A DNA stretch of 64,000 nucleotides from positions 137,739,437 to 137,803,436 of the forward strand of contig OV884011.1 in the NCBI GenBank assembly GCA_930367205.1, in the 5' to 3' direction. Of the stretch, positions 11,322 to 55,449 are shown one piece after another. How positions within the stretch are numbered: the stretch's first letter is position 1; each line of letters begins with the position of its first letter. The notes under the pieces are model-generated. The model had not been told where the DNA came from. It was given only the letters and a program-made list of their open reading frames with translations, and did no database searches. Position numbers and translations under genes: made by a program. The DNA is from Acanthosoma haemorrhoidale (lineage: Eukaryota; Arthropoda; Insecta; Hemiptera; Acanthosomatidae).

Positions 11322-11762
11322 CACAAGAGCGAGCTTTGCAAGAAGCCTCGCCAATCCCCCGCTGTATGTGCCTTGTGTCAGCAAGACCACCCTGCCAACT
11401 ACAAAGGCTGCGAGGCATATAAAGTGCTGAAGAACCGCCTCCAACAACAACGCCGCCCACTCGTGGTAGAACAAGCAGTGAAACCGCGAAGCGTTCCAGC
11501 CAGAGAAGTGAATGACTCCACTTCATTCGCCAACATAGTGTCAGGTGGACGCAAGACATTATCCGAGGCACCGCCTCCTCCCCTCCCTCAACCACAGCAT
11601 TTACCTCAGCCTCACATACACCAAATTCCTCCCCCTCCCAACTCCACAGATCTCACTAGCCTTCTTACATCCTTTCTCACCGACTTCAGAACTCTTATCA
11701 CTCCTCTTATTTCACTGCTCACCAACCTTGTTTCCCACCTCATTCCAAGCTCTCCCATATGA
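11322..11762 (+). pseudogene. LINE-A ORF1 (gag-like) C-terminal part
   Basis: The frame is open from the truncation point to the TGA at 11760-11762. It encodes about 145 residues of the C-terminal half of a Jockey ORF1 protein, the RNA-binding nucleic-acid chaperone of these elements. A short motif with spaced cysteines and a histidine near the start (CALCQQDHPANYKGC) fits the last zinc knuckle of the Jockey family. It is followed by a proline-rich segment (PPPPLPQPQHLPQPH). No in-frame ATG is available at the start because the 5' half is missing. The stop codon overlaps the ORF2 start as ATGA. Confidence 0.75.
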
Positions 11763-12598
11763 ATAAAAAACCCTTAACTATCCTTCTTTGGAATGCCAAT
11801 GGTGTTCGAAATCACACAAACGAACTGACAACATTACTAAATGAAAAAAACATTGACGTTGCACTCATTACTGAAACGCGACTGACTGCTAAAAGATCCC
11901 TCAAAATCCCACAGTACCAGGTTTACAGAACAGACCACCCTGATGGAACATCACATGCTGGTACTGCTGTCCTTATCCACCATTCCCTTTCCCACCACAT
12001 CGTCCCATTGATTGCCCATGATTTCCTACAAGCCACAGCTGTGTCAATCCGCACATTTTCCTTCCCCCTCACCATAGCTGCAGCGTATTGTCCACCTAAC
12101 AAGTCTATTTCCAACTCACAATTTACCTCCTTTCTTAACTCAATTGGACATCACTACCTTGTGGGTGGAGATTTCAACGCAAAGCACCAACAGTGGGGCT
12201 CTAGAACCACCAACTCCCGAGGGCGAGCTTTGTTATCTGCACTCTTATCCACAAACTCCACCCCTCTCCCTCCTCAGACTCCTACCTATTGGCCTGCAGA
12301 TCCCTATCGAAATCCTGACATCCTTGATTTCTTCATCCACCATGGAATAGGATCGATAAATTCGTCCACTACACGGCTCGATGACCTGTCGTCCGACCAT
12401 AGCCCTCTACTCCTCACTCTTTCGTTACACCCCATCCCCAAACTACCTCCTCCCTCATTCATCAGAGGTCCAGTCGACTGGGACCACTTCCGTGAACTTC
12501 TAACTAATTCCATTGACCTCAAAGTTACCCTAAAAACACCTCATGATCTAGACCATGCCGTACATTCCCTTACTACCTTAATCCAACAATGTGCATAG
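11759..12598 (+). pseudogene. LINE-A ORF2, endonuclease part (ends at premature TAG)
   Basis: This encodes an apurinic/apyrimidinic-type endonuclease, the enzyme that nicks the target DNA to prime reverse transcription. Visible motifs in order are WNANGV, the catalytic glutamate in ITETRL, YCPPN, GGDFNAKHQQWG, an NPDILDF block and the final SSDHSP. All match an intact AP-endonuclease fold. The start ATG at 11759 overlaps the ORF1 stop (ATGA), which suggests termination-reinitiation. A TAG at 12596-12598 ends the frame. The same frame then continues open into the RT part, so this is one gene with one nonsense mutation. Confidence 0.9.
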
Positions 12599-14446
12599 AA
12601 TGCTTCAAAGCCTCGACCTTCCCCGTATGCCCAGAACAAAACTTCTTTACCTCAAAACCTACTCGACCTTATCCACATCAAACGCCGCTCCAAAGCCTTA
12701 TGGCAAAGAACCCGACACCCTGCCGATCGCCGCTGTTACAATCAAAACTGTAAATTGTTAAAGCGAGAGTTGGCAACCTTCCGATCCCAAACATTTAATT
12801 CTTACCTATCCTCTTTATCCACTCAGGACAACTCTCTCTGGAGAGCTACCCAAAATATCCTAAAATACCATTATGTATCACATCCACTTCGTCGTGGCGA
12901 TGGGTCCTGGACTGCGTCAGATGGAGAGAGATCTGAAGCATTCGCACAGCACCTCTCACATACTTTCACACCTCATCCCAACCAGCATAATCCATCCCAC
13001 GATACGAAGGTCGAAGATTTCCTTATTTCTCCGATTCCTCTTTCACTTCCTCCAAAGGCAGTCAATCCCTCCGAGGTCCAATACCACTTAAAAAACCTAC
13101 CACTCCGTAAATCTCCTGGATACGATCTTCTCACTGCTCAGATCCTTCGACAACTCCCACCCAAAGCAATAATTTTCCTCACCTATATATTTAATTGTAT
13201 CCTTAGAACCACCCACTACCCACTTCTCTGGAAATATTCCATTATCGTCCTCTTTCAGAAACCTGGAGAGTCCCCAAATGATCCCTCATCTTACCGCCCA
13301 ATCAGTCTACTTCCAATCCTTTCAAAAGTTTTTGAAAGAATCCTACTCAAACGCCTTTTGCCTATAGTTGAATCCAAAAACCTTCTTCCTAACCATCAAT
13401 TTGGCTTTCGCTTCAGACACTCCACTGCTCAACAAGGCCTTCGCGTTGTTGACCATATATCCTCCGCACTTGAAAGCAAACACTACTGCACGGGTGCTTT
13501 CTTGGACGTAGCTCAGGCTTTTGACCGGGTATGGCACTCAGGTTTGCTTTACAAACTAAAAATCTCCTTACCGCAGACCCTTTATCTAATCCTTCAATCC
13601 TATCTGTCTAACAGGTTCTTTCGGGTCCGTTGTGGTTCAGAATACTCCGATTATTACCCCATAGAAGCAGGAGTTCCTCAAGGCAGCGTCCTTGGCCCTA
13701 TCCTGTATACCCTTTTCACTGCTGACATTCCGTTAAGTCCTAGCACCTTCCTTGCAACTTTTGCTGACGACACAGCAATTCTCTCGTCACATCCCAATCC
13801 GTCAACGGCATCCTACAACCTCCAAAATCACCTCACTAAGATAGAGAAGTGGTGCAACATCTGGCACATCAAGGTCAATGAAGGCAAATGCGTTCACACC
13901 ACATTTACTCTCCGTCGAGGATCCTGCCCGTCCGTAACCTTCAATTCAATTCCGCTTCCCATGTCCAATACAGTTAGATATCTAGGTTTTCATCTAGACA
14001 AAAGACTGACTTGGAACCCTCACACAAGACTTAAAAGACAAGAATCGAACAGACGGTTTGAACAGTTAAACAGACTACTGAACAGAAACTCTAACCTCAC
14101 ACTAGAAAACAAACTCCACGTATACAAACAGTTATTAAAACCAATTTGGACTTGCGGAATAGAGTTATGGGGGACAGCCAAACCATCGAACATCAAACGT
14201 ATCCAAACATTCCAATCCAAAGTCCTCAGAACCATAGTCAACGCACCCTTTTATATTAAAAACTCATCCCTTCACAGAGATCTCCATGTACCAACTGTCC
14301 TCGACCTTATACCCTCAAGATTTTCCAAATTTCACCAAAACCTTTCCGCACATCCGAATCCTTTGGTCGACTCCATATCCAGTAAAATTCATCCTTACAA
14401 TCCTCCTCGACGCCTAAAACGGCGGTGGCCTCGCGACCTATTATAA
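12599..14446 (+). pseudogene. LINE-A ORF2, reverse transcriptase part
   Basis: This is in the same frame as the endonuclease part and open to the TAA at 14444-14446. Reverse transcriptase motifs appear in order: SSYRPISLLPILSKVFERIL, the FLDVAQAFDRVWH block with its catalytic aspartate, GVPQGSVLGPIL, FADDTA with both catalytic aspartates, and RYLGFHLDKRLTW. The C-terminal region includes IKRIQTFQSKVLRTI and ends WPRDLL. With the endonuclease part the gene spans 896 codons, close to the usual length for Jockey ORF2. Apart from the upstream TAG no damage was seen, so the copy is fairly young. Confidence 0.93.
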
Positions 14447-21000: not shown

Positions 21001-21452
21001 ACAGGTTTATTTATTTATATCCGAAAAAATTAACCTTAAAAAACCTAATGGTGGGCATGACACAGTATAGATCGCGGGAGGTTAAAATATTACTTTTTTT
21101 ATTATTATTTTATTAACGTTGAATTAATAATTGTATTCATGAAGTATTTTATAGAACAGTAGCATAAAGTGGTCGTCGTTTTTCATCCTGAGGTATGTGA
21201 ACATATAATTAAATCAACTCTGACTGTATAGCTCTTTTTTAAAAGAACTTTATTAGAATTACAATATACTTGGTTTGAAAAGATAAATTACAACTGACTA
21301 ATCTACTATGAACTGAATGGAATCACGGAACGAGTGAATGGATAATGGATAATGCCTGGACCTCTGAGCGAGGGGATCATATATAGGATAGGAAAAGGAC
21401 GGTGGTCAGCATTATGATATGGAGCTGATAGCGAGCTGAGTAAGCACTTAAC
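18011..21452. other. Non-coding DNA with a GC-rich island at about 19570-19790
   Basis: No gene recognised. The island at 19570-19790 has GC-rich words (GGGGCCCGCTCGGGAACGAC, GGTTACCGGTCGGGG) and no open frame. It could be a conserved enhancer or a fragment of an unknown repeat. The remaining sequence is AT-rich. The small frames at 20668-20892 and 20765-20965 overlap on opposite strands and are not convincing. Confidence 0.4.
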
Positions 21453-21474
21453 TATATATATATATATATATATA
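21453..21474. repeat. (TA)11 microsatellite, left insertion flank
   Basis: Perfect TA dinucleotide run of 22 bp directly next to the left LTR of the first Gypsy element. A matching 22-bp run lies at 26951-26972 and a shorter one at 32262-32273, so the elements have split one TA tract. Confidence 0.9.
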
Positions 21475-21659
21475 ACTTAACTCCCGGCTAAACGATTGAA
21501 CTAAAAAGGGGTTGGTAGGTGTGATCAAGACGCAATATAGAACTTAACTAACTTTTATTTCCATCTCCCTCCTATATATACAGTATGAGTGGGGCTTAGC
21601 CCCACTCTCTATTATTGTTTACAATAATCCTTTAGTAATCTCTTCTTACAATGTTAACT
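21475..21659 (-). repeat. 3' LTR of Gypsy element 1
   Basis: 185 bp, reading as identical to the copy at 26766-26950. In sense orientation it has a perfect 10-bp inverted repeat around one central base (21587-21607) just upstream of a TATATATAG box (21572-21580), and an AATAAA-like signal further on. A second inverted repeat (ATTATTGT/ACAATAAT, 21611-21628) lies nearer the LTR start. The LTR end word GCCGGGAG resembles that of the other two elements in this cluster. Confidence 0.93.
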
Positions 21660-21669: not shown

Positions 21670-21928
21670 AGTTCCTTCATAGGAGGAACTTTTGTTCCGG
21701 AGTTTCACACAAATTTTATTTACATAGTAGGTACAAAACTCAAAAAAACATACATCCATTCTAAAGAAAAACATCATATGAATAATCCAACATAAAGGCA
21801 ATTGTCAATCAATAGGTAATAATACAAAAACAATAGTAAATACAAAGCAATAGTACAGAATATGGCTGTCCCAGCTTCTTCGTCTGGGTGCCCTCCTTAT
21901 TTCTTAACACTAATAATCATTACAATAT
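21670..21928 (-). other. Element 1 3' non-coding region, no env
   Basis: About 260 bp between the pol stop and the polypurine tract. No frame of useful length exists, so there is no envelope gene. Short inverted repeats next to the tract (AGTTCC/GGAACT and GGAAC/GTTCC, about 21670-21700) could form a small hairpin. Confidence 0.7.
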
Positions 21929-24900
21929 TTATAAGCTGGGGCGAGTCGGAGTATCCGTCCGAGCGCCGCCGTCCGGCCCATGAGGCTCTTGTGGCTGGGG
22001 GACCCTAAGTTCGTCCCGGTGGACCGTGCGGTTCCGAAAGGGAAAATTTTCGTCCCTGATTGTATATAAATTGTGTTCTCTTACCGCCGTGACCTTGTAC
22101 GGTCCTTCGTAGCGAGCGGCCGTCTTAGTCCTTGCGGTTCGTAACCGTCTGTAGACGATTGTCCCCAGCGATAATGCCCTCCCCCCTTGTATTATTCCCG
22201 GTCTTTCGTTATCCCGGTCGACGCGCGTCTGCTTCCTTCTTATGATCTTCTCCCGGACTCGATCCCAAAGATCCCTCCGCTCCTTGCGTGTCTGTACTAA
22301 GTACCCGCGCAGCTCCGCGTTCTGAGCTGTCATAAGATCCCCCCTATCTCGCCTATTCTGACCGAATATGATTTCCACAGGTGAAAACCCCGTTGCCGCG
22401 TGGATCGTATGGTTGTAAGCGACAACGGCCCTTGGCATTGCTTCCAGAGGTTCCAGCCCCCGGCCCAGTCGGAGTAGCCTTAAGTGCTCCCCCAGAGTGT
22501 TGTGGAGTCGTTCCACCGCTCCTCGTCCCTTAATGTGGTGGGGGGTATTCCGGTGCCACGTTACCCCTAATTCCCGCGTCTGTTCCCGTATATAGTTATT
22601 CTCGAATTCGCGTCCGCAATCTGACGTAATCCGCTCCGGTACTCCGTAGGTCGCACACCAATTTAGGACTCCCTCCCACACTGTCTCGGGTGTCTTCGCT
22701 TCGATAGGGTAGGCCATGGCTAACTTACTAAACACATCTATCGCCGTGAGCCACGATTGACCCTCGTTCGAGTAGACATCTATCTGTATACTCCTAAGGG
22801 GCTCTATCGGCGTCTCCGTGATTACTTGAGGCGTCACCGGGGGGTGTCTATCGTACTTACTACGTTGGCATATTTCGCATTGGGCGATGCACTCGCGTAC
22901 CGTTTTCCCAATCCCCCGCCAAAAGTACATCCTCCTTATCGCGCGGTCCGTTTCCTCCATTCCCCTGTGGTTCGTCTTCCCCGTGTGATGGTCTGTAACT
23001 ATTCGTCGTTGGGTCTGTTCGTCAGTAACTGTCTCTACTTGTCTCAGGCACCGTATTATGTCGTAGTCTATCCCTATTCTTTCCTGCCGCCATAGTCCTT
23101 TTACTTTTTCGGCGAGCAGCCTATTTCCTATAAATATGTGACACGTTCGCCCTCGCGCCGCGAACCCTTGGATAATTCGTCCTAAGTCCCCCTCGTTTAT
23201 AGTCGAATGAGTCCGTACCGTCAGTGTAGTCAATCCCGCGTAAGTCGTCGTTTGTGTTTCTACCCCTGTTGTCTGTCGCGATTTTACTATAATTTGCCAC
23301 TTTTTGTCGTTAATTATTTCGTCGACTTCCTTTAATTCCCCCGGCCGTTCCGTCGGGGATTCCTCTGCCCGGGGTTCCCTTTCTACTAGCGGTATTTCCG
23401 GCCCGCTCTCCGTCCATTCCCTTAGGTATCTCACCGCGAACGGCTCGGTCGGTGTGGTCCCCCGTTCTTCCGCGCGTCTTTGGACTTCCGGGATTTCCGG
23501 ACCGCTCTCTACCCAGTCGCGTAGGTAGCGTAATGCGAATGGTTCCTCCTGTGGCGGGTCGTCCTCCGTGGCGTTAACGACTAAATCTCGTGACAGCCAA
23601 TCGGCCACCGCGTTTTCACTGCCCTTTTTGTGGGCTACGCTAAACGTGTATGCCGCCAGTCGCTCTTTCCAACGCGCCACTCTCGCGGAGGATTCTTTTA
23701 AGGTTCCCACGTATATTAATGGCTTATGGTCGGTAAATAATTCGAACCGGCGTCCGTAGACATACGGTCGGAAGTACTCCACGCCCCATACTACCGCCAG
23801 CAATTCGCGCTCAATCGCGCTATAACGCCTTTCTGCCGGATTGAGCTGGCGTCCCGCGTAGGCGACAGGTTTTTCCCCCTCGCTGAAGGTTTGTGAAAGC
23901 ACGGCCCCTATCGCCGTTTCGCTCGCGTCTGTCGTGACCCTAAACGGCCTGTCAAAGTCCGGGAATGATAATAGGGGTCGGGTCGTCAGGATCTCACGAC
24001 ACTTTTCCATGCTCTTCAGTTGTGCGGGCCCCAGCTGGAATCGACGCCCCTTTTTCAAGAGTTCGGTCAGTGGCCCTGTCAATTCCGCGATCCCCGGTAT
24101 AAATTTCCTATAGTAGTTGACCATTCCCAGAAACCGCCGCACCCCGCGTACGTTCTTGGGTAATGGTGCCTCGCGAATGACTTTTACCCTATCCGGATCT
24201 GGTCTCACCCCCTCGCTCGAGACTACGTGTCCCAGGAATCTTATCTCGCTTAGTCCAAACTGTGACTTCTCTAGTGACAATTTTAGCCCAAACTCCCGGA
24301 TTCTGGCGAGGACTTCCCGCAGGTGTTGGACGTGTTCTTCCCTTGACTTACTGAAGACGATCAGGTCGTCCATATACACCTGAGAGAAGTCCTCCCCCAG
24401 GCCGCTTTGCAGTTCGTCCATAAGACGTTGAAATGTTAGCGGGGCCCCCTTTAGCCCGAAAGGCATTCGCACAAACTCAAAGTGTCCGCGTTCCCACGTA
24501 AAAGCGGTCTTCCCGGCATCTTCCTCCGCCATTCTCACCTGGTGGTACCCGCTCTTAAGATCTAGTGTACTGAATATTACCGCCCCCGACAGTCTGTCTA
24601 GGATGTCGTCAATTCTAGGCAGCGGGTACTTTTCGTCCTGGGTGACCTCGTTTAATTTCCTATAGTCGACTACTACTCTATACCTTTTTTTTTCTTTTTC
24701 CTGTTCCGTCGACCGTTTTTCCACTACCCACAACGGGCTATTAAACGGGGACTTACTTGCCCTAATTATTCCCTGTTCCTTCAACTCTGTCAACTGCTCC
24801 CTAATGATCTCCCTCATTGCCTGCGGGTACCGTCTGTCTTTCACGTAAACAGGCGCCTCTGTCTTTAATCTGATACGGTGTACAGTCTTCCCCGTGGTGG

Positions 24901-25450
24901 GAAGTATTTCGCCCTCCCGGTAGAACAGGTCCCGATTCTTTTGTATCATTTCCCGCAATGGCTCCTTGATGCATTGGGCCGCTCCGATTCGAACCCCCTT
25001 TTCCTCTTCGCGTCCGCCCTTGACGACGTATTTGCCCGTCCCTAGTTTGAACGTCCATCGACCCTTCCCGTAATTCAGATTAAGCCCCGCCATTCTTATT
25101 GCGTCGCATCCAATAATCGCGTCGTACTCGGCGGACACCCTACTCACAATGTGCATCCGCACTGCCGTATTCCGTCCAGTCAGTTTTGCCAACCCTATCG
25201 TCACCTCCCCGGCCGTCTTACAGCGACCGCTAACCGTCGCAATTACACACTCGCATTGTTTCCTCTGCGCCCACACCCCCAATTCCCTAGCCCCTCTTTC
25301 ACTGATTATCGAATTGGTACTCCCTGTGTCTAGCAGAAAATTCACCCCGGTCTCCCCCCACCTCGCCACGGGCAACCTTTTACCTCCCGTTTCCTTAACG
25401 TTATTGATCTGTATCAACACTCCCCGGTTGCCCCACCCCTCACCGTACCC
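21929..25450 (-). CDS. Element 1 Pol: protease, RT, RNase H, integrase
   Basis: The pol region is open from the codon after the gag UGA (25451-25453) to 21929. Counting residues from a GTG at 25420 there are 1163. The retropepsin motif FLLDTGST is at about 28-35, RT catalytic YMDD at about 349 with the FLGHVVSSEG block after it, and the RNase H TDASETAIGAVLSQ block at about 496. The integrase zinc finger (HTGKTNH ... CEICQRSK) is at about 809-850. The integrase core is D881, D933, E968-969, with D2 and E separated by 35 residues. A GPY-type motif (RYEGPYKV) follows, and no chromodomain is seen. The RT-IN linker holds two 33-residue repeats. No ATG lies near the start, so expression must come from gag by readthrough of the UGA. 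Confidence 0.95.
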   Translation of the reverse strand, partial: GYGEGWGNRGVLIQINNVKETGGKRLPVARWGETGVNFLLDTGSTNSIISERGARELGVWAQRKQCECVIATVSGRCKTAGEVTIGLAKLTGRNTAVRMHIVSRVSAEYDAIIGCDAIRMAGLNLNYGKGRWTFKLGTGKYVVKGGREEEKGVRIGAAQCIKEPLREMIQKNRDLFYREGEILPTTGKTVHRIRLKTEAPVYVKDRRYPQAMREIIREQLTELKEQGIIRASKSPFNSPLWVVEKRSTEQEKEKKRYRVVVDYRKLNEVTQDEKYPLPRIDDILDRLSGAVIFSTLDLKSGYHQVRMAEEDAGKTAFTWERGHFEFVRMPFGLKGAPLTFQRLMDELQSGLGEDFSQVYMDDLIVFSKSREEHVQHLREVLARIREFGLKLSLEKSQFGLSEIRFLGHVVSSEGVRPDPDRVKVIREAPLPKNVRGVRRFLGMVNYYRKFIPGIAELTGPLTELLKKGRRFQLGPAQLKSMEKCREILTTRPLLSFPDFDRPFRVTTDASETAIGAVLSQTFSEGEKPVAYAGRQLNPAERRYSAIERELLAVVWGVEYFRPYVYGRRFELFTDHKPLIYVGTLKESSARVARWKERLAAYTFSVAHKKGSENAVADWLSRDLVVNATEDDPPQEEPFALRYLRDWVESGPEIPEVQRRAEERGTTPTEPFAVRYLREWTESGPEIPLVEREPRAEESPTERPGELKEVDEIINDKKWQIIVKSRQTTGVETQTTTYAGLTTLTVRTHSTINEGDLGRIIQGFAARGRTCHIFIGNRLLAEKVKGLWRQERIGIDYDIIRCLRQVETVTDEQTQRRIVTDHHTGKTNHRGMEETDRAIRRMYFWRGIGKTVRECIAQCEICQRSKYDRHPPVTPQVITETPIEPLRSIQIDVYSNEGQSWLTAIDVFSKLAMAYPIEAKTPETVWEGVLNWCATYGVPERITSDCGREFENNYIREQTRELGVTWHRNTPHHIKGRGAVERLHNTLGEHLRLLRLGRGLEPLEAMPRAVVAYNHTIHAATGFSPVEIIFGQNRRDRGDLMTAQNAELRGYLVQTRKERRDLWDRVREKIIRRKQTRVDRDNERPGIIQGGRALSLGTIVYRRLRTARTKTAARYEGPYKVTAVREHNLYTIRDENFPFRNRTVHRDELRVPQPQEPHGPDGGARTDTPTRPSL

Positions 25451-26650
25451 TCAGTCCTCCTTCTGTCTACGCATCAAAACCTCTGCTCCGGATGGCCCCC
25501 CTTTCCAAGGGACCCCCCCACTTACCTCACGTTTGTCTCCAGCCGGGCCGCTGCGCTCGGACACGACGCTCTCTCCCTCCGAGGACTCATCGCTGTCATT
25601 CTGCCGATCTCCTCGCCGGTGCGTCCTGTCGCCGTCCCATCTCTGGCAATTGACTTCCATCGGTTCAGGTCGATGTCCTCTCCTCCCGAATTCGCCGGTT
25701 CGTTTGGGGCACTCGCGCGCGACGTGTCCCCGGCGTCCGCATTCGTAACAACGGGTCAGGTTGCATTGTGCTGCTAGATGACCAGTTCTGTTACACTCAT
25801 AACAGCGCCTCTCCAGTCGTTTCGGTCGCTCATCTTGTGCTCTGAAGGGTCTTCGGTTCGGGCCTGTTCCCCTTGTTCGGTCGCCGCGTTGTATTCCCGG
25901 TGGCCTCCTCTCTCTCCTTGGACTCCTGACCTCCGTCCAGTCCGGCTCCGGGTTCTTGCTGCGCGCCATACTCCTTTCCTGTGCATCGATGAGTTCGTGT
26001 GCACAGTCTAAGACGTCTTTGTCCTTGGTCAACGACCCACGCCTGTCTACGCTTTGGTTCAGCTGCACCTTCATAATCTCTCTCACAAAAATCAGCCTCA
26101 CCGTTGCCTCTGTCTGCCCGTAGGTCTCGATCATTTTTTCATTGAGGCGGTTATAGAGTACGAGCAGTTTTTCTGCGAAGTCGCCCTCGGTCTGTCCCGG
26201 TCTTCTATGTTCCCGCAGGAGGAAGAACACATCCTCTTCTGGTGACCAACGGCCACCCCCATATAGTTTCTTCAGCCGGTTTTTCAATGCTTCCCATGGC
26301 TGCGACGAGTCTCCCTGTATGGCATTCAGGACTCGGCGCGAGATTCTTCCTACCAACGAAGCTTCTAGGATTTTAATGTCCCCGTCGGACAGTGTCCCCG
26401 CTTCCTTCCTGGTTAGGATCAACTCCTTTATTTGATCCCCTCCCTTCAGGAAAAACTCCCCCAACACTCCCGTGAAAGGTTCGAGTTGACCTATCACGTT
26501 GTGGATGAAAGCGCAGCTCTGGGTCCGAATCTTCGCTAGCTCAATCTGCGTGCTTTTGGCGGACTCGCTAAGTTGCAGTTCGAACTTCACGCGCTCCTCG
26601 CGTAGCTGGGTTAGCTCCTTCTGTAGCCTCGCCAAGTCGTCCTCGGCCAT
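25451..26650 (-). CDS. Element 1 Gag with two CCHC zinc knuckles
   Basis: 399 residues from the ATG at 26648-26650 to a UGA at 25451-25453. The N-terminus (about 1-45) is heptad-like and probably a short coiled coil. The middle (about 60-220) is a capsid-like helical region with a YGGGRWSPEEDVFFLLREHR segment shared with element 2. Two zinc knuckles, CYECNRTGHLAAQC at about 281 and CYECGRRGHVAREC at about 298, form the nucleocapsid. The tail is rich in acidic residues, serine and arginine. Gag should package the RNA into virus-like particles. The UGA is followed in frame by pol. Confidence 0.93.
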   Translation of the reverse strand: MAEDDLARLQKELTQLREERVKFELQLSESAKSTQIELAKIRTQSCAFIHNVIGQLEPFTGVLGEFFLKGGDQIKELILTRKEAGTLSDGDIKILEASLVGRISRRVLNAIQGDSSQPWEALKNRLKKLYGGGRWSPEEDVFFLLREHRRPGQTEGDFAEKLLVLYNRLNEKMIETYGQTEATVRLIFVREIMKVQLNQSVDRRGSLTKDKDVLDCAHELIDAQERSMARSKNPEPDWTEVRSPRRERRPPGIQRGDRTRGTGPNRRPFRAQDERPKRLERRCYECNRTGHLAAQCNLTRCYECGRRGHVARECPKRTGEFGRRGHRPEPMEVNCQRWDGDRTHRRGDRQNDSDESSEGESVVSERSGPAGDKREVSGGVPWKGGPSGAEVLMRRQKED

Positions 26651-26748
26651 CGTGTTCCTTCTTCCTGGTACGCCCGAACTAAATAATCCGCCCCTGAGAC
26701 CGCTAACTGCTCAAGTCAATGACTGTATCTCAGGTTTGAATCTAAAGG

Positions 26749-26766
26749 TCCCGGGTTTCGGCACCA
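26749..26766 (-). other. Primer binding site for tRNA-Phe, element 1
   Basis: In sense the sequence TGGTGCCGAAACCCGGGA directly follows (and shares one base with) the 5' LTR end. It is complementary to the 3' end of eukaryotic tRNA-Phe including CCA, whose acceptor strand reads TTTCGGC. The match to the tRNA sequence is from my knowledge of tRNA-Phe, not from a search. Confidence 0.8.
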
Positions 26767-26950
26767 CTTAACTCCCGGCTAAACGATTGAACTAAAAAGG
26801 GGTTGGTAGGTGTGATCAAGACGCAATATAGAACTTAACTAACTTTTATTTCCATCTCCCTCCTATATATACAGTATGAGTGGGGCTTAGCCCCACTCTC
26901 TATTATTGTTTACAATAATCCTTTAGTAATCTCTTCTTACAATGTTAACT
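26766..26950 (-). repeat. 5' LTR of Gypsy element 1
   Basis: 185 bp with no visible difference from the 3' LTR at 21475-21659. It contains the TATA box (26863-26871) and upstream palindrome (26878-26898) that probably drive transcription of the element towards lower coordinates. It is followed on the right by (TA)11. Confidence 0.93.
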
Positions 26951-26972
26951 TATATATATATATATATATATA
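26951..26972. repeat. (TA)11 microsatellite between elements 1 and 2
   Basis: A perfect 22-bp TA run is all that separates the LTRs of the two Gypsy elements. It therefore serves as the target-side flank of both. Confidence 0.92.
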
Positions 26973-27162
26973 AGTTATCGTCTCCCAGCTGTAGACGATC
27001 GAGAAAAAGGAATGAAGAAGGAGGTAGATGATATAATAAGAAGGTTTGTTTTATAACTGGCTTTATTTTCCTCATCATTATCCTCTATACACACGTTACG
27101 GGTTTGTTTACCCTAGGCTACAAGGTATTAGGCTTAACATTGCCGTACCGCTAGACGTAACT
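26973..27162 (-). repeat. 3' LTR of Gypsy element 2
   Basis: 190 bp with AGTTA...TAACT inverted ends. In sense the 3' end carries an inverted repeat (ATCGTCT...AGACGAT, 9-nt loop). A diverged version is found in the dead element at 36563-36585. An AATAAAG signal is present in the middle. Confidence 0.93.
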
Positions 27163-27406: not shown

Positions 27407-30400
27407 TTATGTTTCGACGACGGGGCTCCCAGGCTCCCCCGCGGGAAACTTGAGCTGTTCCACATGTACCGTCCGCCGTTTAATCGGGGGTGTAATGCTT
27501 TTGACCGTGACCACGTTGTGTTCGCGGAGAGCGATCACTCGGAAAGGACCCTCGTACCGCACTAGTTCCTTACCCCTGTTCGACCCTTTTCTCCGGTACA
27601 CGAGCGCGCCGAGTTTAAGATTGCCCAGAATATCGCGGACTTTGAGGTTGTCGCGCGCCACCCGTCGCCGTTTCTTATCCTGGAGCCTTCCCCGAACGGC
27701 CACCCACTGTTTCTTTAGCGCTATCTGATTACTTACTACCCGTGCGGCCAGTTCTTCATCGATCGCCGTACTCCTGCTATCGCGCCGGCATCTTCGAAGT
27801 CCAAACAGCGTCTCGACCGGAGAAAAACCGGTGGCAGAATGGATTGAGTGGTTATACGCGATGACTGTCTTTTCCATCGCCACGTTTGGTTCTAAGCCCT
27901 TCTCTCCATGGTAAATTCGTAGGTGGTCGCTAAGCGTGCTGTGCAGCCGCTCTACGTCTCCTCGACTCTTCGGGTGTCCTGGGGTGTTGAGATGCCAACG
28001 GATCTCTAAGGCCGCCGCCTCAGCCCTTATTTCGGCGTTATCAAACTCCCTACCAGCGTCGGAAGCTATCGTGTCTGGTACGCCATAAAATTGGCACCAT
28101 GTGCGTAGTGCCCTTAGGACTGCTTCCGCTGATCGTTCTGCTATCAGATGGGCCATCGCTGTTTTGCTGAACCTATCGACAATGGTGACCCATTTGTATC
28201 CCCTCCATGTAAACGTGTCCACCTGCAAATCCTCCAACGGTTGGTCTGCCGTTGGCGTCTCCTCCTGTATTGCTCTGGGGGGGTGGCGATCATATTTCGT
28301 GGTCAGGCATGTGTCGCAGGTACCAATAACTCTCGCAATCGTGTCTTTCATGCCCAACCAGAAATATCTCCTCTTCAATGCTTGCAGGGTAGCGTCGATT
28401 CCCCGGTGGTTTGTCTTCCCTTGGTGGAATGCAAGGGTCACTTCTCTCTGCCGCGTTTCTTCTTTTACTGTCTCCACCTTCAGGGTACATCGGACGAACG
28501 TACGATCGACTCCGATCCTCTCCGTCCTCCATAGGCGTTTGATGCGTCCCCAGATGGTCGCATTTCCCACGTACATGTGGTGCGTTTTCCCTGGAGTAGA
28601 TGCGTCCTTCAGAGCGCGGCAAATCGTATCGTCGTTTATCCCCGGTGTCGACCAGATTTTGACGATGTTGCAGTGGCCGTACTTCTCAGATTCCATCTTG
28701 AAGAGCCCAGAAGTTTTGGTGAGCCAAATGATCTGGCGCCTCTTGTCATTTATTATGGCGTCGAGGTCCTCAATGTCCGAGGGCCTATCCCCCACTGAAC
28801 TCCCGTCACTCGGAACATCATTGGCTGGAGCCCCCTCCCGCTCCCCTTCCTCGCCGGGTGACCATTCCTGGACGAATTGGTGGGTGTCACGTGATGGTCC
28901 CGGAATCTCCTCTTCGATCGCATTCACGACCAACGCGCGGGATAACCAATCGGCCACGACGTTCTCCTTCCCCGGTTTGTAAATAATGTCGATGTTGTAT
29001 TGACTGAGGAACTCCTTCCATCTGGTAATCCGCGCTGATGACTCTTTCAGTTTTCCCACCCATTGGAGGGGTCGATGATCTGTTTTAACCCGAAACTTCC
29101 TCCCGAATACGTAGGGCCGGAAGTGTTCTATCGCCCATACGATACCCAGTAATTCGCGTTCTAGCGCGCTATATCTACTCTCGGATTCAGTAAGGCGTCT
29201 ACTAGCGTATGCTATTGGTCGCTCCCCCCCGTCGCGATCCTGCGAGAGTACCGCCCCCAACGCGTATTCACTCGCATCTGTGGTAATCATGAAGGGGAGT
29301 GCAAAATCTGGAAACGCTAGTATAGGCTCTTCCTGTAGCCGCTCCATGCAACGTCTTATATTGTTCTCCATTACCGGGGTAATGACGACTTTTTGTCCTT
29401 TTTTAAGGAGATTGTTAATAGGGACCAGGTACTCCGCCATTTCTGGAACGAATCTGCGGTAGTAGTTCAGGGATCCGAGTAAGCGCCGGATTCCTTTTAC
29501 GTCTTTCGGGATAGTCATCCGCTGGATGGCCTCCACCTTCCCACGATCGGGTTGCACTCCCTCTCTGGAAATTATGTGGCCTAAAAATTTCACCTGCTCT
29601 TGTCCCAAAAGCGACTTCTCCGCAGACAATTTCAGCCCGAATTGCTTAATTCTGTCAAAAACCTGTCGCAGATGGTCCTGGTGTTCTACCTCATCTCGAC
29701 TGAAAACCAGGAGGTCGTCCATATATATCTGGCAAAACGACTCCCCAATCCCTCTTAAAAATTCGTCCATCAGTCTCTGGAACGTTATTGGCGCGTTTTT
29801 CAGCCCAAACGGCATTCTGGTGAATTCGTAATGTCCCCGCTCGAACGTGAATGCCGTTTTGTGTTGGTCTCCACGACGCATCCGAATTTGATGGTAACCC
29901 GCCTTCAGGTCCAGTGTACTGAATACCTTTGCTCCACTTAGGCGGTCCAGGATGTCTTCAAAGCGAGGAATGGGGTATTTTTCGTCTATAGTATTGTCGT
30001 TTAATTGCCTGTAGTCTATTACTACGCGGTATTTTTCGTCACCGGACGACCCTTTCTTTTTCACTGCCCACAGGGGACTGTTGTATGGAGACGTACTATC
30101 TACTATGATGCCCTGTCGTTTCAATTCCTCGATTTCTTCCCTTATATGCTGTCGCAGCGCCTGCGGGTATCGTCTCTCTTTGATATATATCACTCTCTCC
30201 TGCTTCAGTGGGATCTCATGGAACGTTTCCCCCGTCACTCCCAGTTTGTCCCCTTCGTTGAAAAATATATCGGCATACTCTCGCCGAATAGCGCGTTCCC
30301 AGTTGTCCACCCGATCGATCGCTCCGATTCGCTCCTTCCCGTCCCCCACGGTTCCTGTACACCGGCATAACATTCTTCCCAGTCTAATATCCCATATTCC

Positions 30401-30784
30401 GTTACGGCACTTCACTCTTGCTCCTACCCTTCCCAAGAGATCGCACCCTATGATACCATCGTACTCGCGCGGCATCTTCCTAACCACGTGTATTTTCAAA
30501 TATTCCCCCTTTTTCGCCCACCTATCCAATCCCATCGTCAATTCGCCTTCGATTTTACACGGCCCTCCCAGGGTGATAAGCTTGCACTCGCATGCCTGAA
30601 TCCGCGACGACCCCTCGCCCACACACAATCTGTCCGCCGCTTTCCTGCTGAGAATAGTACAGGAACTCCCCGTGTCTATCAAGCATCTCACTCCTCTCGC
30701 CACTCCAATAATGGGTATACCGCCGTAATTCCCTCTGACGCTATAGTTTATTAACGTGCGGCCACCCCTCTGCCAGCCCGCTCC
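27407..30784 (-). CDS. Element 2 Pol: protease, RT, RNase H, integrase
   Basis: This is open from the codon after the gag UGA (30785-30787). From a GTG at 30703 there are 1098 residues. Protease LIDTGSS is at about 8-14, RT YMDDLLVFS at about 327, and RNase H TDASEYALGAVLSQ at about 474. A linker domain contains IINDKRRQII and RIKRLWRTERIGVDR. The integrase zinc finger is HQGKTNHRG ... CDTCLTTKYDRH. The integrase core has D in VDTFTWRG, D in SDAGREF and E in DVERLH, with 35 residues between the last two. A GPF-type motif (RYEGPFRV) follows. It lacks the linker duplication of element 1. There is no ATG at its start, so it should be made only as a Gag-Pol readthrough product. Confidence 0.95.
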   Translation of the reverse strand, partial: GAGWQRGGRTLINYSVRGNYGGIPIIGVARGVRCLIDTGSSCTILSRKAADRLCVGEGSSRIQACECKLITLGGPCKIEGELTMGLDRWAKKGEYLKIHVVRKMPREYDGIIGCDLLGRVGARVKCRNGIWDIRLGRMLCRCTGTVGDGKERIGAIDRVDNWERAIRREYADIFFNEGDKLGVTGETFHEIPLKQERVIYIKERRYPQALRQHIREEIEELKRQGIIVDSTSPYNSPLWAVKKKGSSGDEKYRVVIDYRQLNDNTIDEKYPIPRFEDILDRLSGAKVFSTLDLKAGYHQIRMRRGDQHKTAFTFERGHYEFTRMPFGLKNAPITFQRLMDEFLRGIGESFCQIYMDDLLVFSRDEVEHQDHLRQVFDRIKQFGLKLSAEKSLLGQEQVKFLGHIISREGVQPDRGKVEAIQRMTIPKDVKGIRRLLGSLNYYRRFVPEMAEYLVPINNLLKKGQKVVITPVMENNIRRCMERLQEEPILAFPDFALPFMITTDASEYALGAVLSQDRDGGERPIAYASRRLTESESRYSALERELLGIVWAIEHFRPYVFGRKFRVKTDHRPLQWVGKLKESSARITRWKEFLSQYNIDIIYKPGKENVVADWLSRALVVNAIEEEIPGPSRDTHQFVQEWSPGEEGEREGAPANDVPSDGSSVGDRPSDIEDLDAIINDKRRQIIWLTKTSGLFKMESEKYGHCNIVKIWSTPGINDDTICRALKDASTPGKTHHMYVGNATIWGRIKRLWRTERIGVDRTFVRCTLKVETVKEETRQREVTLAFHQGKTNHRGIDATLQALKRRYFWLGMKDTIARVIGTCDTCLTTKYDRHPPRAIQEETPTADQPLEDLQVDTFTWRGYKWVTIVDRFSKTAMAHLIAERSAEAVLRALRTWCQFYGVPDTIASDAGREFDNAEIRAEAAALEIRWHLNTPGHPKSRGDVERLHSTLSDHLRIYHGEKGLEPNVAMEKTVIAYNHSIHSATGFSPVETLFGLRRCRRDSRSTAIDEELAARVVSNQIALKKQWVAVRGRLQDKKRRRVARDNLKVRDILGNLKLGALVYRRKGSNRGKELVRYEGPFRVIALREHNVVTVKSITPPIKRRTVHVEQLKFPAGEPGSPVVET

Positions 30785-31969
30785 TCAGGCCACCGCTTGC
30801 CGTTTCCTTCCTCCTTCCGTGCCATATCGTCTGCTTCTTACGTAGTCCCTGTCGTCCTCTGCAGTCTCTCCTCTTCTGCTCCTGGGTTCATCTTCTTCTT
30901 CTTCTGTCTCCGACGCTCCCGTAGTTTTTGACGATTTGGAGGGGGTTCTGGTTCTTCTCCATACCCTCTGTGCGTTTACCTCCATCGGTTCCGGCCTATA
31001 CCTCTCTGTTCGCTGGAAAATGTATGGACACTGCCTCGCGATGTGTCCCTCAATTCCGCATTCAAAACATTTTGTTCGCGGGCACTGCGCCACTAAATGT
31101 CCAATTCTTCCACATCCGTGACATTTTCTGTCCTCCTTCCTCCCGCTGGGTCTCGGTCTCCTTAGGCTAAGTCTCCTTCCTTCAACCACCGCCCCTTTTT
31201 TCTCCGCATACCGTTGATCTTTCCTCTTCCATGCCTGTTGCGGCATTCTCGGCCTCCTGTACATTACTTTGGACCACCCTGCCTCGTCTGCCTCTAATTT
31301 TTCTTCTTCCTCACGGGCACTAGTGTCCATTAAATCTTGGGCGCACTCAATGAACGATCGGTCTCCCGGTAGACTATCTTTCTTGCCGGTATTCCTGGCC
31401 AACTGTACCTTTAGAATGGTCGATAGGAATGCCATTCGGCCTTCCACTTCCGCTAGGTTCACCGTTTCTCTCATTTTTTCCGTTATTTTGTTAAATTTAG
31501 CCAAGAGTTCTCCGGCGTACTGCCCTTTCGTTTGATTGGGCCGTCTGGTCTCCCTGAACATCTGGAAGATGTCCTCTTCTGGTGTCCATCTGCCTCCCCC
31601 GTATGCCTTCTTTAGTCGTTCTTTTACCACGGTCCATGGGGTGTCTTCGTCGGCCTGTATTAGGTTTAGTACGCTCCGTTTTATTCTACACACTAGGCCC
31701 GCTTTGATTGATTTTACGTCACCAGAGTCGAGTAAACCCTCAATTGCCTTCGCCTCTACTCTTTCCATAATCCTATCCCCGCCTTTGATGAAATGGTTCA
31801 ATTCGCCTAACTCTCCTGAGAATTTCTCTAGGTCCGATATTGTTCTCCTCAGGTCCTGTGACGTTGCCGCTCGCACCTTCATCCAAGCCAGGGAGTTTGC
31901 ATGAGCTTCGGCCATCGTTTCCCTAGGTAATTCGGGCACTTCGAAAGCCGCAGGCCGTAATTCTACCAT
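30785..31969 (-). CDS. Element 2 Gag with two CCHC zinc knuckles
   Basis: 394 residues from the ATG at 31967-31969 to the UGA at 30785-30787. The capsid-like region includes YGGGRWTPEEDIFQMFRETR, clearly related to element 1 Gag. The knuckles CHGCGRIGHLVAQC (about 281) and CFECGIEGHIARQC (about 302) form the nucleocapsid. An acidic SETEEEEDE run and a basic tail follow. The next codon after UGA begins GGA, and the frame continues into pol with no other stop. Gag fragments of a close relative occur at 34983-36093. Confidence 0.93.
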   Translation of the reverse strand: MVELRPAAFEVPELPRETMAEAHANSLAWMKVRAATSQDLRRTISDLEKFSGELGELNHFIKGGDRIMERVEAKAIEGLLDSGDVKSIKAGLVCRIKRSVLNLIQADEDTPWTVVKERLKKAYGGGRWTPEEDIFQMFRETRRPNQTKGQYAGELLAKFNKITEKMRETVNLAEVEGRMAFLSTILKVQLARNTGKKDSLPGDRSFIECAQDLMDTSAREEEEKLEADEAGWSKVMYRRPRMPQQAWKRKDQRYAEKKGAVVEGRRLSLRRPRPSGRKEDRKCHGCGRIGHLVAQCPRTKCFECGIEGHIARQCPYIFQRTERYRPEPMEVNAQRVWRRTRTPSKSSKTTGASETEEEEDEPRSRRGETAEDDRDYVRSRRYGTEGGRKRQAVA

Positions 31970-32054: not shown

Positions 32055-32072
32055 TCCCGGGTTTCGGCACCA
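32055..32072 (-). other. Primer binding site for tRNA-Phe, element 2
   Basis: The same 18 bases as in element 1 (TGGTGCCGAAACCCGGGA), again overlapping the last base of the 5' LTR. Two families with different LTRs thus share the same primer. Confidence 0.8.
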
Positions 32073-32261
32073 GTTATCGTCTCCCAGCTGTAGACGATCG
32101 AGAAAAAGGAATGAAGAAGGAGGTAGATGATATAATAAGAAGGTTTGTTTTATAACTGGCTTTATTTTCCTCATCATTATCCTCTATACACACGTTACGG
32201 GTTTGTTTACCCTAGGCTACAAGGTATTAGGCTTAACATTGCCGTACCGCTAGACGTAACT
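32072..32261 (-). repeat. 5' LTR of Gypsy element 2
   Basis: 190 bp, reading as identical to 26973-27162. It is flanked on the right by (TA)6 at 32262-32273, the right remnant of the split TA tract. Confidence 0.93.
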
Positions 32262-32273
32262 TATATATATATA

Positions 32274-34058
32274 AAAAATATGTATGTATGTATGTACGAA
32301 GACGACCACGGACGGAAAAACAAATAAGCAAAACTATGTTTCTTAAATGTTTTTCCCAATTAGTCAGATTTCTCTTTCAATTGAATTGTTTTCTAGAAGC
32401 AACCTTTTTTTTCTATTTAAACCCAATTCTATTGTCTCACGTGTGTGTGTGTGTGTGTCCCCATAACCACAGTGAATCACTCTTGACGTTTTTTTCAATA
32501 CTTTAGGAAAATAAATAACAAAAAATAATAAAATAATAAAAATAAAACTTTTTTTATCAAACTAGTCTAGTAGCGAAATATATCGGGGTATTTGTAATTT
32601 TGAAATATGGAGAAATATTTTTTTTTTGTATATAAAGACAGAATAACTTAACATACTCAAACCCAGCCTAACATGTTGGATACAAGGAAAGTAGCATTTC
32701 CTAAGCTGGAGAATCATGTATGAGGTATAAAAAAAGGGAGGAAACATTGCCGTCCGTCATAAGCAGAGTTTTGATTACATTGGGAGCGATCGGTGCCTTT
32801 CTGCTGTATCCTATTACAGTTGAAATACCATTTTTAAATCTGATTTTATAAGTTTACATTGAACAATGACTTTTCATTAATTAACTGGATGAAGATAAAC
32901 AGGGCCGGTAATTAAAGTTGAAAACCCGACCTAAAACTCTTGATATTGTACCATCACTTTCAATGTTATAGTTATTTTCAAATATATATTGTACGAATGG
33001 AAATATAAAAAATTTCTTACATGGCATTTAATAATACTGTACAAGCAAATTGGACTTTGATGGGGAATTGGTGACGCAGCTGATTTTTGGATGAATTAAG
33101 TATAACTAAACTTAGTTGTACCAAGCATATTTTATAACACAACAAATGCAGTTTACCAAAAGCAATCATATTATATACACAACAAATGCTATAAATATTT
33201 GATTGCTTGCCAGATCAAAGCGAAAGAAAATAAACACAGATACTTGCCACCACATAACTACTTCAACGATGTTTTGATTCAGAAAGTTGACAGAGAGGCG
33301 GCACGAAGTTCTAACTTTCCGCCCTTGACAGAAGGGGATCAACAAAGTAATATAAAAGAAAAACAAAAATGTTTGTCACAAACAAGTTGAGCTAAATAAA
33401 CCAGAGCTACTGGAGATACCAGAATTAACAAGACAAACCAACATGGTGAGTAGTATTATAACAACAGCTTTCATTAAAAATGGCCCTAAGGAATATAATT
33501 GTTTATATTCATTATACTTAGCTATAGCATTTATTACAGCTGTTTTCATTCCACTATAAGAAATTATAATCATATATCATGAATTAGAGGTTAAACACGA
33601 TCACATTACAAAAGTGAATACAAACTACGGTCAAGGAAAGAAGGGAACGATAAAAAGTTTGATGAAAATGAAATGCCTTGCTCTTGAAACTGAGTATGAC
33701 TTTACCTTTTGTTTGTATGCACATTTTAACTAACATCCATTAGAGGGTCCTTAAATATTATTATAAAAGTTCGTTGTTAGTAAACTTCTGCACGTTATTT
33801 ATTAAATATATCCTTTGCATTTGTAAATATGTATTCTAATATCTTCACATGGTCTTCCATAATATACATGATGTTAATTATTAAATAAAGTTACATCATT
33901 AGAATATATATATATTTAAAAAATGTCTATGTATGAAATTCTATAAGGTTTCTGTTTTATCTCTTATGACTGTAAGGCATTGTTGTGCTGTTCTGAATGA
34001 GCACAGAATCATTATTTTCCGACCTTTATGTAATCAGTATATTCTTTAAGTGTATATA
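32274..34058. other. Non-coding spacer, with (GT)n
   Basis: No gene recognised. A GT microsatellite lies at about 32440-32458. A 63-codon frame at 33199-33390 has a mildly coding-like composition but no domain. A TATATA flank precedes the dead Gypsy element at 34059. Confidence 0.5.
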
Positions 34059-34649: not shown

Positions 34650-34985
34650 GCTCTCAACGTTCTACCACCACGACCATATGGTCGTCGCCAACGGTGAGCA
34701 ATGACCAAATTTGTCGTGCCCTCAAGGATGCCTCTAAACCAGGGAAGACTCACAATCTGTAGGTGAGGTGAAACACGGCCATCTGGAAAAATACTTAGCG
34801 ACTGTGGTGGGCGGAACAGATTGGGGTGGATCGAACATTTGTGCGGTGTACCAATACCAGTACCATCAGGCCAAAACAAATCATCAGGAGGAAGACGGGA
34901 CAGCTCAGGCGTTTAAGCGCAAGTATTTCTGGTGGGGGATGTGGAAGACTATTCAGTTTGCTGTTATATTACAGCGGCTTTTGAA
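34650..34985 (+). pseudogene. Pol linker and integrase zinc-finger fragment, element 3
   Basis: Pieces in two frames match element 2 Pol: NDQICRALKDASKPGKTH, a GVDRTFVRCT word, then YHQAKTNH and FKRKYFWWGMWKTI of the integrase zinc finger. The protease, RT and RNase H regions are missing upstream. The sequence jumps at about 34983 into a second gag start. Confidence 0.8.
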
Positions 34986-36093
34986 GTGCCCAAACTACCT
35001 AGGGAAATAATGGCCGATGCTCATGCAAACTCCCTGGCTTAGACGAAGGTGTGAACGGCGACGCCACAGGACCTGAGAAGAACAATATCGGACCTGGAGA
35101 AATTCTCAGGAGAGCTAGGCGAATTAAATCATTTTGTCAAAGGTAGTGATAGGATTATGGTTACTCGACTCTGGTGACCCAAAAACAATCAAAGTGGACC
35201 TACTGTGTAGAATAAAAAGTAGTGTACTAAACCTAATACAGGCCGATGAAGATACTAAGGCCCATAGGTAAAAAAAAGTCCGAAAAAGGCGTATGCATGA
35301 GGCAGATGGACACCAGAAGAGGACATCTTCCAGTGGTTCAGGGAGACCAGCCGGCCGAATCAAACGACAGGGCAGTGCGCCGGAGAATTCTTGGCAAAGT
35401 TCAACAAAATAACTCAAAAAATCAGAGAAACGGGGAACCTAGCGGAAGTATAAGCAAGAACGGCATTCCTATCGAGCATTCTGAAGGTACAGTTGGCCAG
35501 GAGAACAGGTAAGAAAGATACTCTACCGGGATACCGATCGTTCATTGAGTACGCCCAAGATATAATGGACTCTAGTACCGGGAGGAGAACCCGTGAAGGA
35601 GAAGAAGAATTAGAGGCAGAAGAGACAGGGTGGTCCAAGGTGATGTACAGGAGGCCGAGAATGCCGCAACAGGCACGGAAGAGTAAGGCTCATCGCTTTG
35701 TGGAGAAACAATTCACGGTGGTGGCTAAAGGAACGAGACCTAGCCAAGGGAGACCAAGGCCCCGCGGGAGGAAGGAGGACAGAACATGTCACGGATAAGG
35801 GAGAATTGGCCACCTAGTGGCGCAATGCCCGCGCACAACGTGTTTTGAATTCAGAATGGAAGGACACATCACGAGACCGGTCCCATATATTTTCCAGCAA
35901 GCAGAGAGGTATAGGCCGGAACCGATGGAGATAACCGCACATAGGGTGTGGAGAAGAACCAGAACCTCTCTGAATCGTCAAAAACTACGGGAGCGTCGGA
36001 GACAGAAGAAGAATACGAACCCATGAGCAGCAGAGGAAAGGTTGAAGGGGACGGCAAGGTACGGAAGGAGGGAGGAAATTGCAAGCGGTGGTA
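34983..36093 (+). pseudogene. Second gag copy, element 3, with many stops
   Basis: This follows element 2 Gag from FEVPKLPRE to the tail, with several nonsense codons and frameshifts. Recognisable parts are RRTISDLEKFSGELGELNHF, KVQLARRTGKKDTLPGYRSF, GWSKVMYRRPRMPQQA, a knuckle GRIGHLVAQCPRT with its first half damaged, and RYRPEPMEI. The frame equivalent to Gag ends in a TGA at 36094-36096, at the same place as the UGA of element 2. Confidence 0.85.
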
Positions 36094-36096
36094 TGA

Positions 36097-36330
36097 GAGG
36101 TGGCCGCACGTTAAGAAACATCAGCGTGAAAGGGAATAGCGGGGTCTTCAGCAATGCAAGACGTGACCCCGACAGCAAACAGAGCACTGGTAGATCTACA
36201 AGTGGTACATTCACCTGGAGGGGGTACAAGTGGGTAACCGTCATAGACATGTTTGGCAAAATGGCAAGTCATGCCAGACCTATCGGTGAAAACAGTGTGC
36301 AGGCATTACGCACATGGTATTTATTTGTAT
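36097..36330 (+). pseudogene. Pol start and integrase core fragment, element 3
   Basis: Just after the UGA the GGRTL word of the element 2 pol leader is kept. A deletion then joins it to the integrase core (TFTWRGYKWVTVIDMFGKM, ending ALRTW). The first catalytic aspartate region is disrupted by a frameshift. Confidence 0.75.
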
Positions 36331-36377
36331 ATCTGTAAACAAACATTTTTTTTTTTTTTATTTTTATCTATGTATAA

Positions 36378-36400
36378 GTTTACGGGGAATGTCCGTAAAC
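36378..36400 (+). other. Conserved hairpin, element 3
   Basis: The same 23-bp hairpin as at 27174-27196 (GTTTACGG, 7-nt loop, CCGTAAAC), just before the 3' LTR. No difference is seen although the surrounding sequence has diverged. Confidence 0.7.
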
Positions 36401-36407
36401 TGGTAGG

Positions 36408-55318: not shown

Positions 55319-55449
55319 AACTTCAAAAATTCTAAAGAAACCAAAGGAATTGTGAGGTATTGCATGTTAGAATAATAACTAGAACTATTTACTAACATAT
55401 TATATTTTTCTTCTAATTTAACATTTGTTACACAAACACGAACACAAAC

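Follow-up and report, generated by a model that had tools for sequence, protein, structure and literature searches.

An in-frame UGA conserved between gag and pol in Ty3/gypsy retrotransposons of Acanthosoma haemorrhoidale points to programmed readthrough

In animals, Ty3/gypsy elements mostly link Gag to Pol through a frameshift or encode both in a single open reading frame (ORF), and Copia and the plant Ogre and BARE elements use splicing for gag or gag-pol. Here we analysed a 64,000-nt stretch of the genome of the hemipteran Acanthosoma haemorrhoidale (contig OV884011.1; hereafter the window), whose minus strand carries two adjoining, complete retrotransposons with long terminal repeats (LTRs), E1 and E2, in which a single UGA stands between gag and pol, the two sharing one frame. 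An earlier note on this DNA proposed that the UGA of E1 is read through and called the layout unusual for a Gypsy element, which is a fair description among animals.

The description does not extend to the whole family. According to the accessible sections of PMC10085805, the fission-yeast Ty3/gypsy elements Tj1, Tosmo1-3 and Tcry1 already carry an in-frame UGA in a CU context, and the Tj1 stop is reported to be essential for transposition. As far as those sections describe these elements, E1 resembles them in having gag and pol in one frame, a single UGA and conserved surroundings, and differs from them in its animal host and in its signal, GAN-UGA-GGG followed by a conserved, predicted long-range stem rather than the GAA-UGA-CU (C/CU type) of the yeast elements. 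Viral type III readthrough, as outlined in the accessible part of PMC3542737, generally takes place at a UAG whose next base is G or which precedes a purine-rich octanucleotide, with a structured RNA on the 3′ side that typically begins ~8 nt past the stop; the same part gives the context UGA-GGG for enamovirus, without a type, and lists epsilonretrovirus as type III, with UAG-R and an extended stem-loop. E1 shares its UGA-GGG with the former and, in its predicted long-range stem, resembles the latter; the genomes are unrelated, and the two features combined in one retroelement are not met in that part of the source. The gag UAG of murine leukaemia virus (MLV) is likewise a stop followed by G and RNA structure (available portions of PMC4178896 and PMC3542737), features that E1 and E2, with their putative Gag-Pol readthrough and predicted stems, have in common with it, and changing this UAG to UGA left readthrough essentially unchanged (available portion of PMC4178896). 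Unlike MLV, E1 has no compact pseudoknot at an 8-nt spacer that we could find, its predicted long-range stem instead beginning at 17-19 nt, and no env.

A single UGA between gag and pol in two diverged elements

Both elements show the features of Ty3/gypsy (Metaviridae), namely LTRs, a primer-binding site, a Gag with CCHC knuckles, and a Pol ordered protease, reverse transcriptase (RT), RNase H, integrase (Table 1). In each element Pfam identified the CCHC knuckles of Gag and the RT, RNase H and integrase of Pol; it named the protease in E1, and in E2 that domain was recognised by the motif LIDTGS. The primer-binding site of E2 also lies directly 3′ of its 5′ LTR, and the sites of both elements fit tRNA-Phe, to whose 3′ end, as we presume it to read, TGGTGCCGAAACCCGGGA is complementary. 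Over the aligned parts the two elements share 45% identity in Pol and 41% in Gag, and because the LTR pair of each is 100% identical, both insertions are recent. In E1, pol ends at 21929 and the 3′ LTR begins at 21659, and because the intervening ~270 nt are too few for it, E1 lacks the env ORF of an endogenous retrovirus or errantivirus. By these features E1 is classified as an env-less LTR retrotransposon of the Ty3/gypsy type, and the junction as the one between its gag and pol.

As the earlier note had described for E1, one UGA alone separates gag from pol in a common minus-strand frame, and the first pol codons read GGG UAC GGU (GGG TAC GGT in the DNA); E2 is built in the same way. No ATG lies between the UGA and the protease motif in E1 (up to DTGS) or in E2. 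We rejected reassignment of UGA as a sense codon, since neither gag-pol contains another in-frame TGA and their Trp codons (24 and 26) are all TGG.

We then surveyed copies in the window's own assembly (865.6 Mb, 72 contigs). From the best 100 of 7329 candidate matches to E1-type gag, 11 were left out since they ended too early, and 88 of the remaining 89 junctions were examined; these include the window's own E1 and span E1-like copies as well as subfamilies at ~84, 78, 72 and 60% Gag identity. At the position of the E1 stop, 86/88 junctions carry TGA, the exceptions being a CGA (L072) and a broken junction (L074). With the broken junction counted, the codon after the stop is GGG in 85/88 and the codon before it is GAN in all 88. 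Apart from the UGA, 53/88 junctions are open over the last 80 gag and first 90 pol codons, and these fall into near-identical groups of 28, 12, 11, 1 and 1. The E2 junction, with the context UGA-GGA, carries TGA in 20/20 copies, 17 of which are otherwise open in the stretch seen. A sense codon in other copies, which by the earlier note's reasoning would have marked the UGA as a private mutation, was clear only in the decayed L072; the E1 UGA is not a private mutation.

The E2 family looks young and is very abundant, with at least 104 gag matches (of 8460 candidates), all 98-100% identical; 98 of the 104 have no internal stop. Every open frame in the 104 matches listed is 397-410 residues long, so in none of them does gag run on into pol. 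The clade uniting E1- and E2-type elements comprises at least six subfamilies in this one genome, some present only as decayed copies.

Across six pairs of subfamilies, the pairwise ratio of nonsynonymous to synonymous divergence (dN/dS) in the first 40 codons downstream of the stop was 0.30-0.77. Synonymous divergence there was lower than in adjacent gag in 6/6 pairs (for example, 0.35 vs 2.07), barely so in two (2.01 vs 2.17 and 0.45 vs 0.46), and lower than in the protease part in 6/6.

We consider programmed readthrough at UGA-GGG the probable route to Gag-Pol in these elements, with a probability of roughly 0.85. In its favour are two diverged elements, each with identical LTRs, whose intact ORFs share a frame and are interrupted by one stop, and the base context, since the G or purine-rich octanucleotide next to the stop at type III sites has its counterpart both in the conserved GGG of the E1 clade and in the UGA-GGA of E2; on this evidence the junction would work like type III readthrough. 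Most ribosomes would stop at the UGA and release Gag, and a minority would decode it by a near-cognate tRNA and continue in frame through protease, RT and integrase to yield Gag-Pol. The signal would probably consist of the UGA, the GGG next to it and a long-range 8-bp stem. The UGA, the frame and the sequence of this helix are conserved; that readthrough occurs, how frequently it does so, and that the RNA adopts the helix and is thereby read through more often, we infer from the sequences.

Sequence and predicted structure downstream of the stop

The predicted helix pairs GGGCAACC with GGUUGCCC, its 5′ arm starting 17-19 nt past the UGA and its 3′ arm lying ~50 nt further. When 87 junctions (L074 set aside) were scanned with at most one mismatch per arm, both arms were found in 86, with the 3′ arm missing from L047. 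Pairing is 8/8 in 82 of these 86, and the spacer is 17 nt in 81; the linker varies in length by whole codons, giving a loop of 48, 51 or 54 nt in 85. In an alignment of six subfamilies this was the only conserved 8-bp helix in 382 aligned columns. All seven codons of the helix with its 3′ extension, those of GGGCAACC and AGG-TTG-CCC-GTG-GCG, are synonymously invariant, as against 12 of 63 other codons whose amino acid is invariant (Fisher P 4e-5), a contrast weakened by its reliance on four representatives and on helix codons chosen partly post hoc.

In E2, one fold contains a possible helix, GGGUGGCCGC/GCGGUAUACCC, spelled differently from that of E1, with the same 17-nt spacer and a 3′ arm at the matching Pro codon. 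A stem is likely in E1, judging from these patterns, and plausible in E2. Over the first 16 or 36 residues of the linker, E1 showed no significant similarity to E2 (matched by 15% and 43% of shuffles); E2 and the database Pol P0018 align well in the first linker residues.

The earlier note had placed a quadruplex or pseudoknot here. The four G tracts it listed (GGG, GGGG, GGGG, GGGG) are present within 29 nt of the E1 UGA, a density of at least four such tracts being reached in 1.8% of 220 40-nt windows along E1 gag-pol, and they recur in the 78% subfamily. They are absent from the 60% subfamily, which has two G runs, and from E2, where only two tracts of G occur in the 40 nt downstream of the UGA. 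RNAfold with quadruplexes enabled formed one only in a 60-nt window of E1, with no gain over the ordinary fold, and the E1 stop lacks the standard G3+N1-7 motif, the first loop there being 8 nt. By a scan with a simple energy model of our own, no compact H-type pseudoknot follows an 8-nt spacer in E1, and the E2 candidate is reached or beaten by 33% of that element's windows. The structure that is conserved here is another one, the long-range 8-bp stem; the readthrough half of the earlier proposal is well supported by conservation, the quadruplex half is not. No Rfam family reached its threshold anywhere in the window. With relaxed E-values the E2 junction had no match and the E1 junction three, all far below gathering scores (two long noncoding RNA families and a bacterial DnaX frameshift element), with no readthrough element among them.

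Competing routes to Pol

Several observations weigh against readthrough aided by this stem. Local folding energy at the stop is no better than that of shuffles (z 0.05 for E1, 0.57 for E2), and 86% of E1's own windows match or beat it. The helix is invariant, without covariation within the E1 clade, an 8-bp helix was also reached in 1 of 20 column-shuffled alignments, and the E2 helix is missing from other E2 folds. Viral readthrough structures usually leave ~8 nt after the stop, as the accessible part of PMC3542737 has it, against which a spacer of 17-19 nt is long. At the stop junction of Candida Tca2 a reporter showed no readthrough, although a purine-rich stretch and a predicted pseudoknot follow the stop (accessible part of PMC7175516). 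The surveyed junctions come from the best-scored matches and many are near-identical, so their counts are not independent. Lastly, at least 20/88 junctions have an in-frame ATG ahead of the protease, and a strong, conserved splice donor near the UGA stands unexplained.

This donor invites two spliced readings, which we scored with textbook splice matrices. By excising a 117-nt intron that holds the UGA (in E1, donor 25525, acceptor 25409), in-frame splicing would let spliced RNA encode Gag-Pol and unspliced RNA Gag. The intron is the top in-frame candidate of E1, begins at the best of its 270 donors and is matched by only 5.1% of 1000 synonymous shuffles; GAGGTAAGY recurs in 84/88 junctions, 72 nt before the UGA in the 7/7 representatives checked, and five database Gags read EVS, EVR or QVR at this point. 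The acceptor side does not follow suit. E1's TACAG is kept in only 34/88 junctions, and while L055, L056 and L084 offer other weak in-phase acceptors (0.4, 0.4 and 1.1, vs 1.9 in E1), the best ahead of the protease in L052, L073 and L081 are very poor (-8.5, -6.4 and -4.6). No donor of similar strength lies close to where E2 gag ends, and 59% of shuffles match the best intron of E2. At up to two mismatches, the spliced E1 junction occurs in none of the genomic copies, as against at least 60 with the unspliced donor, and the intron would remove the conserved G-N linker codons together with the 5′ arm of the helix. The E1 clade therefore has the strong conserved donor near the gag end that recalls Copia, Ogre and BARE and, unlike them, neither a conserved acceptor nor a spliced genomic copy that we could find; the conserved in-frame intron around a stop that typifies Ogre was not found, and we regard this route as very unlikely. 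Slightly better placed, though still improbable, is a copia-like gag-only mRNA, spliced from 25525 to an acceptor at 21761 just after pol, that would set the Gag:Gag-Pol ratio alongside or instead of the UGA. The best of E1's 270 donors and the best of its 449 acceptors do flank pol, and the donor is conserved; the acceptor, however, is embedded in T-rich noncoding sequence, which is expected to score well, this spliced junction too is absent from genomic copies (at most two mismatches), E2 offers no counterpart to the donor, and the production of Pol past the UGA would be left unaccounted for.

Pol might also be made unfused to Gag, from a separate start downstream of the UGA through reinitiation, a non-AUG codon or a late AUG, to which we likewise assign very little probability. 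The absence of an ATG before the protease, claimed in the earlier note and true of both window copies, does not hold across the clade: a KEM ATG at the 21st codon after the UGA, a T-to-M change absent from the window copy, is found in 14/88 junctions (L018-L031), and at least six more (L052, L064, L068, L069, L073 and L076) have one elsewhere in the linker. In 11 of 17 Pols of the sister clade described below, moreover, an M-G-[NRKG] near the start resembles a genuine start or a recoding site of another kind. Against a separate start, the E1/E2 clade shares no start codon, 4 of its 11 database relatives start only past DTGS, and a common frame broken by a single UGA, which such a start would not need, is held in two diverged elements with 53 and 17 open copies. 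That the UGA merely reflects decay or private mutation of elements whose gag and pol are otherwise fused has a negligible chance: decayed copies exist, such as L074 and the E2-like E3, yet young intact copies with identical LTR pairs carry the UGA, over half of the E1-clade junctions are open on both sides of it, and the only clear sense codon is the CGA of one decayed copy. The copy survey refutes this explanation.

Relatives, neighbouring features and a sister clade

Among nine database matches to Gag, all predicted proteins read without their DNA, we excluded P0010 (truncated) and P0013 (a weak plant match). The seven full-length Gags that remain (P0005-P0009, P0011 and P0012; 384-401 residues) stop at the alignment position of the E1/E2 UGA and end in D, A or E. 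The close relatives of Pol are predicted as ORFs of their own, most of them ~1010-1150 residues long. In a tree of 41 Pols, which holds no named reference lineages, E1 and E2 fall among gypsy-like Pols within a starred clade of 13 rows, beside a starred sister clade of 17. The E1/E2 clade has no common Pol start, the first predicted start coming only after DTGS in 4 of 11 database Pols. In the sister clade, M-G-[NRKG] stands at or within two residues of the Pol start in 11/17, with the protease motif ~27-46 residues further on, a hint that Pol is started or recoded by other means there; the two clades may not make Pol in the same way.

A search with the first 160 Pol residues returned no matches, and scans of viral contigs found no relatives. 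None of 15 distant gypsy loci from prokaryote bins, several of them fragments and none with gag identified by homology, had, by its ORF list, a gag and an in-frame pol with a single stop between them; three (L009, L012 and L014) have one in-frame stop each, but within the pol match. In the literature, covered incompletely through titles and abstract openings, we found no report of an insect gypsy element in which a stop codon is read through from gag into pol.

Table 1. Features of E1, E2 and E3 in the window, with sister-clade Pols
Feature	Coordinates or identifiers	Strand	Comment
E1 5′ LTR	26766..26950	-	185 nt
E1 primer-binding site	26749..26766	-	TGGTGCCGAAACCCGGGA; directly after 5′ LTR
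E1 gag	25451..26650	-	399 codons plus UGA; ATG at 26650; frame stop-to-stop 26710..25451; two CCHC zinc knuckles, PF00098
E1 splice-donor-like GAG/GTAAGT	25520..25528	-	72 nt upstream of UGA; best of 270 donors in E1
E1 UGA stop between gag and pol	25451..25453	-	86/88 genomic junctions keep UGA
E1 pol	21929..25450	-	starts at 25450; 1173 codons; same frame as gag; protease, RT, RNase H, integrase
5′ arm of E1 conserved stem, GGGCAACC	25426..25433	-	17 nt after UGA
3′ arm of E1 conserved stem, GGUUGCCC	25370..25377	-	inside codons R-L-P
E1 3′ LTR	21475..21659	-	185 nt; 100% identical to E1 5′ LTR
E2 5′ LTR	32072..32261	-	190 nt
E2 gag	30785..31915	-	376 codons plus UGA
E2 UGA stop between gag and pol	30785..30787	-	20/20 copies
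E2 pol	27407..30784	-	gag frame kept
Possible E2 5′ arm, GGGUGGCCGC	30758..30767	-	one fold; 17 nt after UGA
Possible E2 3′ arm, GCGGUAUACCC	30713..30723	-	one fold; one bulged A
E2 3′ LTR	26973..27162	-	190 nt; identical to E2 5′ LTR
E3, decayed E2-like copy	34974..36407	+	TGA at junction beside 16-nt gap relative to E2
Sister-clade Pols with M-G-[NRKG]	P0024-P0029, P0031, P0033, P0034, P0037, P0039		

TA repeats border each of the two elements, both lying within (TA)n tracts (21440-21480, 26945-26980 and 32255-32285) and having LTRs that begin AGTTA-, which suggests a TA-rich target choice. E3 is 84-88% identical to E2 in its longer matches; it has lost most of pol and joins gag to a short pol segment and an LTR-proximal segment. 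Elsewhere on the plus strand of the window, a non-LTR (LINE-like) endonuclease-RT frame with one in-frame stop spans 11660-14446, named from its translation alone, and a long ORF at 55417-58119 resembles the Gag, with the aspartic-protease motif LIDTGSE, of another retroelement, ending some way past the protease.

A wider scenario, tentative and on balance doubtful, is that the E1/E2 clade fixed a UGA-GGG signal with a long-range stem of its own (17-19 nt spacer, arms within codons), that the sister clade makes Pol otherwise, and that the E1 half of the clade sets its Gag:Gag-Pol ratio by readthrough together with splicing. A clade that probably uses readthrough and persists in many near-identical copies, beside a sister clade that may differ, would make the evolution of recoding strategies directly testable, and its diverged sequences would supply a natural set for one readthrough signal in an animal.

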